From contig NC_134677.1 in the NCBI RefSeq assembly GCF_024713945.1, forward strand, positions 2,731,001-2,795,000: a stretch of 64,000 bases of DNA, read 5' to 3'. The notes under the pieces are model-generated. The model had not been told where the DNA came from. It saw nothing but the letters and a program-made list of their open reading frames with translations, and did not search any database. The position numbers were made by a program, and so were the translations under genes. This document shows positions 20,274 to 33,450 of this stretch, in pieces; the first letter of the stretch is position 1, and each line of letters starts with the position of its first letter. The DNA is from Dermatophagoides farinae (Eukaryota > Arthropoda > Arachnida > Sarcoptiformes > Pyroglyphidae).

Positions 20274-22283
20274 CACAACCTTATGATCCGGGTACGAATA
20301 CAATTACTCGTGTAATCAATCCAGGAGATAAGGTGGACATTCCTTGTTCAGTGGTAACGCCCGGTGGTTCAGTTAGATGGGCATTGAATAACAAACCAAT
20401 CCCATTGGTAAGTTTGCTTTGTATATGTGTGTGTGTGTGTGATCAATTATCGATTAAATTTCATGCACTTTTTTCTGATTAGGATTCTAATCAACGTCGC
20501 CATTGGAACATATCAAATGATGGTAAAGCTACATTGACAATAAATCGTGTTTCAAAAATGGATGCCGGTCTTTGGGAATGTTGGAAACTTGATGGTGATT
20601 TCAATATACGACAAAAAGTTCCCATTATGCGAATTGTATTGAATAGTATGTTTGCATTATTATTTTCTTAAAACACATGAAACCGATTTTAAAAAATTTT
20701 TTTTAATTAGATGTACCTGAAGAACCCTATCTAGAATATGAAGGACGGCTTTTATCGTCACATAGTACAATATCCGTACGAGCCAATAATGTAATCAAAA
20801 TCAATTGTGTCATAAAAGGAATGACTTCGATGATAAAATCGGTGCAATGGTTTGTTGGCCAAAATAATTTTACACATCAAAGTCGTTTACTTATGGAATA
20901 TTCGGCTGAAGAAGATGTATCATTGACTATATCTGTATTAACATTGAATGTTAGCGCTAAATTTCATCATGAACCGTTAGTTTGTCAGATATCACATCTA
21001 AGTTGGTCCAATACAGCTAATGTTACGGCTAGATTCAATGTTTTATGTAAGAAATTTATTTAAAATTTATTAGCCATTCCTTTATCTTTGTGTCTTTGCA
21101 GATCCTCCAGAGTTTTCCATTGTTCGTGAACCAGGATTTGGTTTTCCCATAATCGAAGGCATGGATCTTACGCTTCGTTGTGAAATTGATGCAAATCCTA
21201 TGAGTCCAGTCAGATGGGAACGTGATTCTGATCCGAAAATTTCAAACGATTCTTTAGCACCGATTGATACCAGTCCAGATGGAACATTGATTATAAATCC
21301 AATAACCCTAAAAGACATTGGTTGGTATCGTTGTACAACTGAAAATGAATTGGGATTTTTTGCTTCGGTGGGATTCTTCATCAATGTTCGTGAATCATCC
21401 GATGAAATGACAGCATTGGTTGATCAATTACGTTCACAAAATCCACATCTTCCATCGGTACCGGAATCACAGGATGAATTTCATCATAGATCATCTAATG
21501 ATTTTGCTTTCCGCAAAATACACGACCATTCAAATCGAGAATCACATTTTCAAGCTTCTCGATCGAATGGACCAGATTTCCATGGTGGTAATGGTTATAA
21601 TAATCATCAGCCACAAATATCTCGACCCGAATGTTCACCAAATAGTGGATCAATCAATAATGCCGATGGTCGTCCAATAATTGAATCGATAAATTCCACA
21701 GTGATCGCATTGGTTGGATCACAGATTACATTAATTGCACGTTTTTGTTGCATTCCTCGCCCGAAAAAAGTTTATTGGATACATAGACATTTGGCTATGA
21801 TGCCGTCCAGAATTATTGGACGATATACTACACGTGAATTAATCATGGTATAAGTTTATCGATCGATTTCTATAGAATAATCAAAATTTTTAATCAATTT
21901 TTTTTTGTTCATTAGTCATCAAATTCAATGAATTGTTTTACATCAAATTTCATTATCGATGCTGTTAAACCAGAAGATGCGGGTGATGTAATGTTTATGG
22001 TACTGAATCAAAAAGGCATTGACCATGCATTAGTATCATTAAATGTAACAATGGCTAGCTATTCTATTTTATCATCATCATCGAATGGTATGTTTATCGA
22101 TAATTGATTAATACTTGATTGTAATCCTTTTTGTCAATTTATTTAGGAATCATGACTACTTCGGCAGCAATATCCATTATAAATTTGACATCAATAACAA
22201 TGATTCCATTGTCATTACTATGTATGATTATCATTAATGTGATATTGAATTGGAATCATTTATCGATGGATGTACAAAGATAG
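20274..22283 (+). CDS. Immunoglobulin-superfamily membrane protein, 5' partial
   Basis: Six exons can be joined in phase: 20274-20407, 20483-20645, 20711-21046, 21102-21847, 21916-22087 and 22147-22283 (stop TAG); introns are 55-75 bases with GT-AG ends. They encode about 561 residues after the missing start/signal exon. Three Ig domains are clear: domain 1 (exons 1-2) has IPC, VRW and DAGLWEC, with Trp where Tyr is usual; domain 2 is exon 3; domain 3 begins exon 4 with LRCEI, VRW and DIGWYRC. A linker of about 95 residues rich in Ser, Asn and His follows, then a fourth, degenerate Ig-like domain lacking its second Cys (DAGDVMFMV). The end is a hydrophobic segment plus about 10 polar residues, suggesting a single-pass type I protein with a short tail rather than a GPI anchor. 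The role is probably cell adhesion or recognition; the subfamily (nephrin- or sidestep-like) is uncertain. Confidence 0.85.
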
Positions 22284-23799: not shown

Positions 23800-25597
23800 A
23801 TGAAATTTTCCATTTGTTTTTTGTCATTTTTGTTTTTATTGTTGATTTTTGGAACTGTTTCGGCACAGTCCCGTGGTAAGTTTTTTTTATAAAAAAATGA
23901 ATGATTTAAAATTTTCATTTGTTTTTTTTCTTCCTGTAGATCGAAACGATAAACCTTATCGTATTGTTTGTTATTGGGGTACATGGGCATTTTATCGGCC
24001 AGCATCGGGAAAATTTCAGGCCGAAAATGTCAATCCAAATCTTTGTACACACATAATGTATGGTTTCGCTAAACTACAAAATAACAAGATTGCTTTGTAT
24101 GATCCTGATTTGGATGATGGTGATGAAGATTGGAATTCTGGCCTACAATGGGGTCATGGAATGATAAGACGAATGGTGAATCTTCGTACATATAATCCAC
24201 ATCTAACCACTATGATATCATTGGGTGGTTGGAATGAAGGTTCGGATAAATATTCGATTATGGTCCGTGATCCAGCCAGTCGAAAAATTTTCATTCAATC
24301 TGTCCTACATCTTTTGGCTGAATTTGATTTAGATGGTTTAGATTTTGATTGGTATGATAATGATTTTTTTTCATTTTTAAATTATATAATGATTTAATTT
24401 TCTTAGGGAATATCCAGCAATGCAAGCTTCTGGTGATAGTGATCGAAAACCGGGACGAGCAGAAGACAAGGAAGATTTTGTAACTTTATTACGTGAATTA
24501 CATGAAGCATTCCAGCCACATGGCTATGTATTGTCTTCAGCCGTATCTGCCGGTAAACCAACAATTGATCGTGCATATAATATTCCTGAAGTGAGCAAAT
24601 ATTTGGATTTCATCAATTTGATGTCATATGATTATCATGGTGGATGGGAAAGTCATACCGGACATAATGCCCCATTGAATTCATATAAAAATGCCAATGA
24701 ATTAGATAAAGAATTTACTGTCACTTACTCAGTTGAATATTGGCTCAATCATGGTGTTGATCCAAAGAAATTGGTATGCTTATTTCCAATTCCTTAAAAA
24801 TATTATCATCTAATTTTTTTATTTTCGATAATTAGGTCTTGGGAATTCCATTGTATGGTCGTACATTTACATTGGCCGGTTCCGAACATGGAATTGGTGC
24901 ACCAACCATCGGTAAAGGTGGTGAATCCGGAACTATCACACGTACGATCGGTATGTTAGGCTATAATGAAATCTGTACAATGATCAAACAAGGATGGCAA
25001 TTATATCGTGATGAAATTGAACGTATTCCTTATGCTGTACATGCTAATCAATGGATTGGTTATGATGATCGAGAAAGTGTAAATGAAAAATTGAATTTAT
25101 TGATGGCAAAACATCTTGGCGGAGCTATGGTATGGTCAATCGATACGGATGATTTTGTAGGCAATTGTGTGGGTGTCAAATATCCTTTGTTACGATCAAT
25201 ATCAAAAAAATTAAATAACGTTGATGGTCCAGATCCGGATATTAAACGATATCATTATCATACATCGACAGCTAAACCACATACAGATGGTACTACCTCA
25301 ACTCATCATGATCATAAAACAACGACTACGAAACATCATAAGACTACCCAGCCACATCATAAGACTACCCAGCCACATCATAAGACTACCCAGCCGCATC
25401 ATACTCAAACAATAACAACGACAACAGAAAGACCCCATGGTAAATTTCAATGCCATCAAGCTGGATTTTTTGCCGATCCTGAGAATCCAAGAAAATTTCA
25501 TCAATGTGTAGATTTTGGTGGCCATCTTAAAGATTATGAATTTATGTGTGGTGAGGGAACACACTATGATGAAAAATTACATATATGCGTCCGTTGA
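23800..25597 (+). CDS. Secreted GH18 chitinase with C-terminal chitin-binding domain (mite group 15 allergen-like)
   Basis: Four exons, 23800-23875, 23940-24351, 24407-24773 and 24836-25597, join in phase to 538 residues. Residues 1-22 are a signal peptide. Residues about 30-400 are a GH18 barrel: the catalytic motif DGLDFDWE ends in Glu164 and is split by intron 2, with SLGGW before it, MSYDYHGGW at 235-243 and the barrel-closing Trp385. A Thr/His linker with three 7-residue repeats (452-472) leads to a CBM14/ChtBD2 domain (491-536) with four of the six usual Cys. All catalytic positions are present, so it should hydrolyse beta-1,4 chitin outside the cell, for example in gut lining, moult or food digestion. 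Sequence character matches the dust mite group 15 chitinases, but it looks like a paralogue rather than the named allergen. It converges on the cystine-rich gene downstream. Confidence 0.93.
25334..25396 (+). repeat. Three 21-base tandem repeats in the chitinase linker
   Basis: Three copies (25334-25354, 25355-25375, 25376-25396) are identical except for the last base of the third. Each encodes His-His-Lys-Thr-Thr-Gln-Pro. Identity at synonymous positions suggests recent slippage or unequal exchange. Diverged related units flank the block. The linker is a probable O-glycosylation target because of its Thr content. Confidence 0.95.
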
Positions 25598-25637: not shown

Positions 25638-25643
25638 AATAAA
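25638..25643 (+). terminator. Poly(A) signal AATAAA of the chitinase gene
   Basis: Canonical hexamer 40 bases after the chitinase stop. One base separates it from the oppositely oriented signal at 25645-25650. Confidence 0.65.
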
Positions 25644-25644
25644 T

Positions 25645-25650
25645 TTTATT
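25645..25650 (-). terminator. Poly(A) signal (AATAAA on - strand) of the cystine-rich peptide gene
   Basis: TTTATT on the + strand reads AATAAA on the - strand, 55 bases after the - strand stop at 25706. Confidence 0.55.
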
Positions 25651-25705: not shown

Positions 25706-26007
25706 TCAACCAAGAGACGATGGCAAATTAGCATGTGAAACCAGATTACAAAAACCACCAGTTCCAAGACTATGGTCGCAGAAAAGATCTGTATTACAAC
25801 AGGTAACGCCGCGAACTCCGCCACATACTTCACCAGTTCCTGCACATACTGTTTTAAGAAAAATAAAAATTAAAATCAAAATTCTAGAATATGAAAATTT
25901 TGTATTTTCTTACTGCCTTGATTGATAGTAAAACAAGATATTGAAATAATAAAAAAGATGAATATGACAATGGTCAAAGGCAGAATATGATCACGTAATA
26001 AAGTCAT
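25706..26007 (-). CDS. Secreted six-cysteine peptide with a cystine-knot-like framework
   Basis: Two - strand exons, 26007-25914 (ATG, 31 codons plus one base) and 25848-25706 (stop TGA), are separated by a 65-base intron with donor GCA|GTAAGA and acceptor AAACAG|TA. They join in phase to 78 residues. Residues about 8-28 are a hydrophobic signal segment. The mature part has six Cys at 33, 40, 48, 49, 55 and 65, spaced C-x6-C-x7-C-C-x5-C-x9-C with many Gly, the layout of inhibitor-cystine-knot (knottin) peptides; a tail of about 13 residues follows. Such peptides serve as defence peptides, protease or channel ligands, or venom components in arachnids; which applies here cannot be told. Neither exon is long enough to show up in a simple ORF scan. 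It is tail-to-tail with the chitinase gene. Confidence 0.75.
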
Positions 26008-26548: not shown

Positions 26549-26773
26549 TTAGCCGCGAAATCGGCCACCACCACCTCCTCGGCCACCACCTCCGCGGCCA
26601 CTGCTTCGTCCTCCCCGGAATCCACCACCGCCACCGCCACCACCACGACCAAAGCTTCGGCCACCACCTCCACCGCGACGACCACCACCACCACCACCAC
26701 GTTGAGCGATTGTAAATGGTGCGATCAAAGCCAAAATGACGATTAACATCAATGAAATTGATAAGATTTTCAT
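26549..26773 (-). CDS. Secreted glycine/arginine-rich peptide
   Basis: This single-exon gene encodes 74 residues. Residues 1-23 are a clear signal peptide (Lys near the start, a Leu/Ile core, then Ile-Ala before Gln). The mature 50 or so residues are almost only Gly and Arg with a few Ser and Phe, in runs of 4-8 Gly broken by Arg-containing units such as RSFGRGG and FRGG. Arthropod Gly-rich secreted peptides include antimicrobial peptides (acanthoscurrin-like) and cuticle or glue proteins; RGG tracts also occur in RNA-binding proteins, but the signal peptide argues for export. The coding region is far more GC-rich than its surroundings because GGN codons dominate. A TATAAAAG box lies 96 bases upstream and a poly(A) signal downstream. 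It is a lone - strand gene, oriented like the cystine-rich gene. Confidence 0.8.
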   Translation of the reverse strand: MKILSISLMLIVILALIAPFTIAQRGGGGGGRRGGGGGRSFGRGGGGGGGGFRGGRSSGRGGGGRGGGGGRFRG

Positions 26774-29030: not shown

Positions 29031-29163
<133 letters not shown>

Positions 29164-29818
29164 GAAAACCCGAATTTAGAAGGTCAAACTTATTTTTCTG
29201 GCAATTTGTAGCCCAAATTCATTCTTTTTTCACTGATTTTTCTTTTTCGTTCTATCATTCAATTCCACCCATTTTCATTTCTTTCTTTTTTGCTTTATTT
29301 TGACAGCGTATTAAAGTGTCAGACAAGTATTTTTGTAGTTTGTTTGATGATAAGAAAATTTATGGATCCTTTGTTGTTTTTTAAAAAAAAATTCGATTTT
29401 GCTTTTTTTTGTAGCTTCCACACCACCCCAACACACAGGTGAAAATACATTGGATTCATGTATGGACACGCGTTTTCTTAGATATAAAATGATTTTAAAA
29501 TCGTTTGATTTGTTATTGTCATGGTAGCCTTTTCAATTGAGAATAAAATTCTCTAAAATTTATGGTGATACAAATTTTTTTTTGTTTTGATTGCATAAAT
29601 AAATAAGGTGATCAAACAAAATTGGATCGATAAATAGACAGATGGCCACAATCGAATGGTGTTGATTGTTGAATAATATTTGTATAAGTGATCCATTATC
29701 AAACTATAGGAACAAATGAAAAAAAAATCTAAATTATAGGCAGCAATCCAAAAAAAAAATGATATAATAACGTGCTCTATTCGAGATAAATCATTGATTC
29801 ATTTAATTGATTTGTTTG

Positions 29819-31670
29819 ATGTTTGATCATAAAATGAAAATTATGAAAACAACAACAACTAAAAAAGAATACTATTCATCGTCTTTTAAACGATTAACAA
29901 GAAAATTCACATATGAAAATGTATTATGGTGGTCATTTCGTATATTAATTTATCTGTTTTTAGCATTTATAGCCACTATTTCCATTTATAAATCACAGGA
30001 GCAATATAAAATCAAAATAGCCGATTATAAAAGAGAATTAAAAGATCAAGTTTATTTTCCAGGCATCACAATTTGTGCACCAACTATTATAACACCTAAA
30101 TTATTGTCAAGTAAGCATTTTTTTTTATTCATATGATATGATGAAGTATAAGAATTTAAATTCGACAATTTTTAATTTTAGAATTTTATCCAAAATTTGC
30201 TACATTCATGAACGAAAATGTCAACAAACAATCGGAATCTGTCTATAAAACATTCAAATATTATGAATCAAAAATGTTGAGTAATTATAGCATAAAAGAA
30301 ATAATTTATTACTATAGTGCAAGAATGCGAAATGTGATACGTTCATGTCGTTATAATCCACTAAGATATCGATATATGAATAAATTTAATGAATATATAC
30401 CAGAATTGAATTGTGACTCATTATCAGCTGTTCTAAGCAGTATATTTGCTGGTAAAAAATGTTGGACATTTTTCAGTAAAATGGTGATTAAAATTGATGA
30501 TTGGAAAAATCAATTACCAAATGATACCTATGATTACATGAAAAAACATGGTTCGAATACATTTCTTAGTTATGAAGAGTATATGGTGAATATAATTTGA
30601 TTATATTTAAAATTGTTATTCAAATCTAATCATCAATATATAATTTATTACAGAATTTATATGGAAAACTTGTCTTACAAATGGCACCCGATTATAATCC
30701 AGCCATCAGTATTGATTTGGATCTTGGTGATGATCAATGGAAAAATTTGGCAGATCCAAATGAGATTGGCGTTGCTAGTTAGTACTTTAATTGTTGTATT
30801 TTTCACATTAATTAATCAGGTTAATTTAACTATGAAATAATTGTTTTTGTTTTGTTTTTTTTCTTTATCAAAAAAAAAATCAGTACATCCACCTGAAATT
30901 TTACCTGAAATGAAAAATTTTGTTTATTTCAAACTGAAACGTAACTATATGCTGGAAGTTTCATTTAACAAAGAAAATATTCAATGAAACCGGTTATATT
31001 TTGAATTGTTGTAATTATAATGATGAAGATATCTCGTACAAGTTATTTGGAACACACGATGGTTGTATTAATTCTTGTATAAATCAAAATTTTTTTCGGG
31101 ATAATTTTTGCTATTCCTATTTTCATATGATTACAATAACCAGAATGGTTGATGAGGAAATGAAATTTCGAATTTGTCCACATGAAAAACAGGTATTTGG
31201 TGAATTTATTTGTATTTAATGATAATCAATGAATTTTAAATCAATTAATTCTTTTTTACCCTAAGGATTATTTACGATTTCTTCGACATCGAAATCATTG
31301 TCTTTCTCATTCATCCTGTAGAAAAGAATGTGTCAATAATGAATTGGATATTGATTTTCATTTAACCAGAATTCAACCCCCTAACGGAACGAATTCTTTT
31401 GCTCGAATTCATATACGTCTGTCAACTATTCCATATAAAATTTATAGTTATCGAAATTTAATGACAAATAATGAAGTATTTGGTATAAATGGTGGCCATA
31501 TGGGGTTATGGCTTGGTTTATCCGTTATCGTTTCATACAATGTTATTGCCGATTATATAATTCCATTTCTGAAGCTTTTATTTTGTATAATCTGTAAAAA
31601 ATGTAGATTGATTTGTTTACATTTTTCATATAGTTGCATTAGACATTCTCGATCATATAATTGTAATTGA
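29819..31670 (+). CDS. DEG/ENaC-type amiloride-sensitive sodium channel, copy 1, with apparent frameshift
   Basis: Five exons: 29819-30110, 30182-30585, 30654-30777, 30884-31192 and 31266-31670, encoding about 510 residues if one extra base is ignored. I chose the first real ATG of the frame. TM1 is residues about 35-57; FPGITIC (80-86) is the post-TM1 motif. The extracellular loop has many Cys (for example RSCRY, LNCDS, KKCWT, CCNYND, CPHEKQ). Near the end GGHMGLWLGLS is the pre-TM2/selectivity-filter motif with G-L-S. In exon 4 the frame set by the acceptor hits TGA at 30985, while the frame matching copy 2 continues from the next register; the shift lies between 30938 and 30984. It is either a sequencing error or a disabled allele; all other motifs are intact. 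The donor of intron 3 is the weak GTTAGT. Proposed role: cation channel in sensory cells or epithelia. Confidence 0.78.
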
Positions 31671-31689
31671 CTTTCGGTTTTTTTTATCA

Positions 31690-31700
31690 AATAAAATAAA
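31690..31700 (+). terminator. Overlapping poly(A) signals of DEG/ENaC copy 1
   Basis: Two overlapping AATAAA hexamers begin about 20 bases after the stop. Confidence 0.55.
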
Positions 31701-31850
31701 ATTATATTCCATAAATTGATAATATGAACATATGCTAAAATCAATTGTTAATGATTGTTTTTCCTTGACATTCATTTTGCAAATATAATCGATTGATTAA
31801 AACAATGTATAATGTCATTTGCGAAAATCATTCAATGAATCTCATATACA

Positions 31851-33450
31851 ATGAAAAAATTGAAATTGAAATTTAAATTTAAATCTGATCTGATCAGTTT
31901 TTTTTGGTTTTTAATTCGTGTTCCGATTTATGGTGTTTTATTCTATTTTACTTGGAAATGTTTATTATTAGTTCTTTTGAAATCTATTTTTTTCATTGTT
32001 CATATGAACCATACTGATGCGATTGAAGCAGATTTTCCAGCAATAACAATCTGTGCACCATCCATACTGAGTCCGAAAAATATGTCTGGTATGTTATTTC
32101 AATTGATTTGAATTTTTTTTTTCATAACGGTTTGTCTATCACTATAGGTTATGATCCGAATTTTGCAAATTTTCTCATGAAATATGAAAAAGGAGAATTC
32201 AAAAACTTGTCTGAAAAAGAGTTGAGAGCCAAATTTCAAGGTTTTGAATCTAACTTGCTGAAAAAAATGAAGACTGTAGATTTAGTTGAATATTTCTCGG
32301 CTAATATTTCATCAGTTATACGATCCTGTAAATATAGGCCAATGAATTATCGGATAATGGATGATGAATCTAAACATCATTTTCGAGCAATTGATTGTTC
32401 ATCAATCAAGACTGTTGTTAATAGCATTTTTTTCGGAAGAAAATGTTTTACTTTTTTCTCCAATTTAGTCGATATGTCAGATGATTGGCGACACAATATA
32501 CCGAATGTATCTTGTTCATCATTTAAATGTTCACATACGGGTCTCGATAAAGATATCGTTTTTTTGTATCGAATGTATAAGCGAATATATTCACGAATGA
32601 TAGCTGAACTTAATCCTGAAATTAATATTGAAATCGAAGCTACGGATGATGATTGGAAATTTATGAATGTAGATGGTTTGTTTACGGTTGCAAGTATGTA
32701 TTTTTTTCAAGTTATTTTTGACACAATTTTTTTAATTATATTTATTGACATTAATATTTTTGAATTGTAATAGTTCATAAATCTAATGTATTACCATCAA
32801 TAGAAGATTTCATACAATATTCTATCGTAAATAATCACCGATTGGATATAGGTTTCACAATGACTAATTTGAATATAGTCAATAAAAACACAAACAGCTG
32901 TTTAAATTATAATGATGGATCTTTGTTTACAAGCTATCGAAATAGAGATGAATGTATTAGAATCTGTATTCTTGAACAATTTTTTATTGCAAATTTTACC
33001 TGTCACTATTATTTTCCACCCGTTATTCTTGAACATTTATATGGTGGACAAAAACAATTGACAGTCTGTCCACATGATCAACAAAATTATTTACGATATT
33101 TACAAACAAGACAACTATGTCAATTTCGTTGTGATGAAGAATGTCAACAGGAAAAGCTTGAAACATATTCATTATCAACAAAATTTTCAGGAAAATTAAC
33201 TGGAAAAACCTATGCACAGATTCGAGTACATTTTACCACTTATCCAATAAAATCAATTCGATATCGAAAAATCATTAATGACAATGAATTCATGGCCATG
33301 ATTGGTGGTCATCTTGGACTTTGGCTTGGATTATCTGTAATGACATTTATCAAGATATACTTAAAATTTTGTGTTTTCTTGCTTCGTAGTTGTATTAAAA
33401 TGCTTCACCTTCATCGTATTGCAAAATATTTACTTAAGCATTTTGATTAA
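31851..33450 (+). CDS. DEG/ENaC-type amiloride-sensitive sodium channel, copy 2
   Basis: Three exons, 31851-32088, 32148-32693 and 32774-33450, join in phase to 486 residues, a usual length for arthropod pickpocket-type subunits. A Lys-rich start is followed by TM1 (about 27-50) and FPAITIC (62-68). The loop carries conserved-looking Cys pairs (IRSCKY, IDCSS, RKCFTFF, SCLNYND, CIRIC, CPHD, CQFRCDEEC). IGGHLGLWLGLS (ending at about 449) contains the G-L-S filter and starts TM2, followed by a basic cytoplasmic tail. It shares many motifs with copy 1 directly upstream in the same orientation, so the two arose by tandem duplication, but the copies are well diverged. Copy 2 lacks two introns present in copy 1. 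The His-Gly gating motif expected before TM1 in many family members is not evident. Ligand and expression cannot be told. Confidence 0.88.

Follow-up and report, generated by a model that had tools for sequence, protein, structure and literature searches.

A two-exon gene convergent with a chitinase gene in Dermatophagoides farinae encodes a predicted secreted six-cysteine peptide with a candidate inhibitor cystine knot-like fold

Introduction

The inhibitor cystine knot (ICK, knottin) peptides of invertebrates, among them the asteropsins, the tachystatins and the ICK peptides of spiders, are built on a short domain that has six Cys and an adjacent CC pair in its middle. Their cysteines are expected in the order C..C..CC..C..C, the loop between the fourth and fifth Cys usually spans 1-4 residues, although this range is not strict, and their three strands have a usual placing along the domain. 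A similar Cys order is found in the knottins of the Antifungal_pept family (PF11410). Here we describe a gene for a small cysteine-rich peptide on the minus strand of a 64,000-nucleotide stretch of the genome of the house dust mite Dermatophagoides farinae (NC_134677.1, positions 2,731,001 to 2,795,000, hereafter the window), next to a chitinase gene.

Both gene classes appear usual in the genus, since a study of D. pteronyssinus, the sister species, reports 24 genes for antimicrobial peptide-like (AMP-like) cysteine-rich peptides, 11 of which are male-enriched, and 16 chitinase genes (PMC12105342). Those AMP-like peptides are likewise small and Cys-rich.

Results

A spliced minus-strand gene identical in product to a deposited protein

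The original prediction, made from the letters of the window, placed two minus-strand exons with canonical splice sites at this locus. The same structure was reproduced in our analysis, with the following features:

25914..26007, minus strand: exon 1, 94 nt, with the ATG at 26007, a hydrophobic signal-like sequence and the first base of codon 32 (from translation)
25849..25913, minus strand: intron, 65 nt, GT-AG, with the ends GTAAGA...AAACAG and 15.4% GC
25706..25848, minus strand: exon 2, 143 nt including the TGA, with the six-Cys core and a short tail
25645..25650, minus strand: AATAAA, candidate poly(A) signal of the peptide gene (motif match only)

Translation of the spliced minus strand gave an uninterrupted frame of 78 amino acids across the in-phase junction. 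An in-frame TAA lies three codons 5′ of the ATG, which is thus the first possible start in exon 1. The GC content of exon 2 reached 44.8%, whereas the intron had 15.4% and the upstream sequence 25.9%. By codon position, GC was 55/60/21%; both this periodicity and the contrast between exon and intron speak for a gene.

From end to end, the predicted peptide has the same sequence as an NCBI record, "hypothetical protein DERF_001543 [Dermatophagoides farinae]". This agrees with the mite origin that had been proposed from the letters and shows that the gene, first thought to be hidden and easily missed, is already deposited and hence known. Nor are both exons too short for detection of open reading frames, as had been argued, since exon 2 is contained in a listed open frame of 67 amino acids, short yet not invisible. 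As the record may itself be a prediction, it cannot serve to prove independently that the gene is transcribed.

A codon-usage score for which the adjacent chitinase was the only training gene does not discriminate the strand of exon 2: it gave 0.291 bits per codon for the true frame, with -0.117 for the synonymous part of that frame, and 0.325 for an antisense frame. A plus-strand gene in the antisense frame was rejected despite this similar score, as it lacks a signal-like start.

A signal-like N-terminus and a six-Cys core

Residues 7-28 of the peptide are strongly hydrophobic, with a 15-residue mean Kyte-Doolittle hydropathy of up to 2.94. The signal peptide announced by the original prediction is a candidate one, and secretion itself is predicted and probable. 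A seventh Cys, residue 25, stands at the end of this hydrophobic stretch. Assuming cleavage after residue 25, the computed mature peptide is slightly acidic and has a mass of about 5.3 kDa.

The core encoded by exon 2 has the spacing C-x6-C-x7-CC-x5-C-x9-C, exactly as first described, and follows the order expected of the ICK fold, with which it is compatible. Its loop between the fourth and fifth Cys contains five residues, compared with the 1-4 of the usual consensus.

The frequency of such patterns was estimated in 60 first-order Markov simulations and in a 200-kb control made of 20 regions of the same genome. The strict six-Cys pattern occurred once in the window, in none of the 60 simulations and nowhere in the 200-kb control. 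The broad six-Cys CC pattern was also found once in the window, compared with a mean of 0.033 per 64 kb in the simulations (at most one in any of them), and once in the control, within an accidental-looking Ile/Met/Leu-rich frame. A looser form that permits extra Cys in the loops is not discriminating, with two occurrences in the window, one of them the peptide gene, and eight in the control, mostly Cys runs. The six-Cys pattern exceeds chance and is by itself uncommon, not unheard of, these rates being a guide only because the patterns were drawn after the peptide had been seen.

Structure prediction and family profiles

A single-sequence AlphaFold2 model showed three strands, at residues 7-9, 21-24 and 31-35 of 46, with a mean predicted local distance difference test score (pLDDT) of 73.0 and a predicted template modelling score (pTM) of 0.48; two of the five models had a mean pLDDT of about 55. 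Three such predicted strands in a short six-Cys domain would liken the peptide to the asteropsins, tachystatins and spider ICK peptides. Foldseek returned 17 structural matches, none of them significant, 13 of which we take from their titles to be ICK or knottin peptides. Weak matches were also obtained to agouti-related protein and to IGFBP-type domains, tied with other small Cys-rich domains, and the top row of VIA-align was a non-ICK module. The peptide thus differs from the described invertebrate ICK peptides in having no significant sequence or structure match to them, and in that its disulfides are predicted.

The profile search proposed alongside the original prediction returned no family: neither the 78-residue protein nor its exon-2 part matched any Pfam family at E <= 10, and no NCBIfam family matched the peptide. 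This sets it apart from the Antifungal_pept knottins. Genome-wide searches with the profiles PF11410, PF07740 and PF08117 did not return the peptide locus either. PF11410 gave one weak match (L002, E 4.7), PF07740 four matches, one of them above the cut-off, and PF08117 one. Around the PF07740 and PF08117 matches (L005-L009), frames with at least four Cys on one strand or at least six on the other were inspected. The multi-Cys frames of L005 and L007 look like pieces of larger proteins, and the matched frames of L006, L008 and L009 fell below the Cys limits; all five were set aside.

Search for relatives

Protein searches with the peptide, pre-filtered by shared words, yielded the identical record as their single candidate, no other protein sharing enough words, and Dermatophagoides kin may be missed by such searches. 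A six-frame search of the mite's own genome (62.4 Mb, 22 contigs) returned one match, the gene itself, and no second copy. The codon pattern of the GVTCCN motif occurs at two places in the genome, the peptide gene and C1:7367406; the latter was rejected as a paralogue, as no ICK-like frame exists in the three plus-strand frames around it.

As a yardstick of coverage, the same protein search was run with the neighbouring chitinase; of 7901 candidates, 27 proteins reached E <= 1e-150. Several of these rows lacked a species name, and Dermatophagoides was absent from the named ones, although D. farinae itself carries the gene. The lack of a knottin orthologue consequently proves nothing, because Dermatophagoides records can be missed, for which the collection, its clustering, length limits or the word filter can be responsible.

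Literature searches found no mention of DERF_001543, none of DERF_0 tags together with Dermatophagoides farinae, and no paper combining Dermatophagoides with 'inhibitor cystine knot'. The main texts of PMC8487952, PMC10722327, PMC11074847 and PMC12105342 do not contain 'DERF'. A tick-saliva paper, one of two that contain 'cystine knot', names the mite once, for Der f 7 (PMC9779611).

The convergent chitinase gene and its surroundings

Two plus-strand features border the peptide gene on its 3′ side:

23800..25597, plus strand: GH18 chitinase gene with exons 23800-23875, 23940-24351, 24407-24773 and 24836-25597; TGA at 25595-25597, with a TAA directly after
25638..25643, plus strand: AATAAA, candidate poly(A) signal of the chitinase gene (motif match only)

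The encoded chitinase of 538 amino acids comprises a signal-like start, the GH18 domain, a Thr/His-rich linker and a C-terminal CBM_14 domain. Its best match by identity was the 'mite allergen-like protein (Chitinase-like)' of Euroglyphus maynei (82% over 88% of the query) and its best by E-value the probable chitinase 10 of Oppia nitens (56% over 78%); the identity to Sarcoptes scabiei was 60% over 81%.

The peptide gene had been described as lying on the strand opposite the chitinase. It does adjoin the chitinase gene in opposite orientation, and it is located beyond the 3′ end of the latter: the two genes converge, with stops at 25595-25597 and 25708-25706, and their coding sequences do not overlap. 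The 108 nt between the two stop codons have 14% GC and carry an AATAAA on each strand. That the two genes are convergent neighbours is no evidence that they share a function.

Directly upstream of the peptide gene, at 26549-26773 on the minus strand, an open frame of 74 amino acids begins with a signal-like segment, followed by a Gly/Arg-rich tail, and matches no Pfam family. Elsewhere in the window, a (TG)n run of 124 bases at 29038-29161 makes open frames read alternating Cys-Val or His-Thr, and several long plus-strand frames at 29807-33450 look like at least two membrane proteins that are related to each other and have the motif 'GGHxGLWLGLS', and which we tentatively regard as DEG/ENaC-type channels. 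The plus-strand frame at 21074-21853 resembles an immunoglobulin-domain protein.

Discussion

The locus very probably holds a genuine gene whose product is a secreted peptide, and the fuller reading, in which this product is also ICK-like, is probable. The fold on its own, which depends on the Cys order and on the predicted models, is likewise a likely one. What the analysis shows is a spliced frame that stays open, a product identical to the deposited one, the Cys framework and three predicted strands. From these we infer that the gene is transcribed and that its product is secreted: roughly the first 25 residues would be cleaved off as a signal peptide, and the mature peptide would fold into a three-disulfide, three-stranded ICK-like domain. 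The disulfides C1-C4, C2-C5 and C3-C6 are suggested by the Cys order and the low-confidence model. Such a peptide would be stable outside cells and would most likely act there, in the gut, the haemolymph or the reproductive fluid, binding a protein or membrane target as a compact molecule that resists proteases, and its putative function would be AMP-like or inhibitor-like. This defence or inhibitor role is a tentative assignment, with odds somewhat below even. The defence, inhibitor, ligand and allergen roles put forward in the original prediction are conjectures. No evidence of a venom role was met in the analysis.

The six cysteines could instead support a different, non-knotted disulfide fold in a peptide that is secreted all the same. 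The low confidence of the models, the longer loop between the fourth and fifth Cys and the non-ICK module found by VIA-align would fit this possibility, whereas the adjacent CC in the middle of the core and the placing of the three predicted strands, which is the usual one in ICK peptides, speak for a knot, and we consider a non-knotted fold unlikely.

The role of the peptide, rather than its fold, is at stake if it is a signalling ligand or a growth-factor-like peptide, agouti-like or IGFBP-N-like, and not a defence peptide or inhibitor. The single copy, unlike the expanded families of effectors, the acidity of the peptide and the weak matches that the structure searches gave to agouti-related protein and to IGFBP-type domains point in this direction. 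Those matches are, however, neither significant nor distinct from the ones to other small Cys-rich domains, and conserved ligands usually have some word-sharing relative, whereas none was found here in a search that may miss Dermatophagoides kin. A ligand role seems to us about as improbable as a non-knotted fold.

A chance open frame accepted by gene predictors would accord with a deposited record that may be prediction only, with the relatives not found in the protein and own-genome searches and with codon scores that do not favour the strand, and is nevertheless very unlikely, because the signal-like exon, the in-phase GT-AG intron, the six-Cys core, the GC contrast and the same-strand AATAAA occur jointly and the identical protein is deposited.

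Within the preferred reading, an ICK-like secreted peptide, the product might also be a lineage-specific, fast-evolving Dermatophagoides knottin with no detectable relatives, made for instance in the male accessory gland or the gut and reaching house dust as an undescribed minor allergen; this is a speculative extension to which we give very little weight.

As things stand, the locus is an ordinary, already deposited gene to which a new suggestion of fold is added, the ICK-like label being reasonable yet unproven. Secreted peptides of this kind, small and rich in cysteine, often carry no label beyond 'hypothetical protein'. If expressed, this one would be a further candidate extracellular peptide, from an allergenic mite, on which expression and IgE tests could be made.
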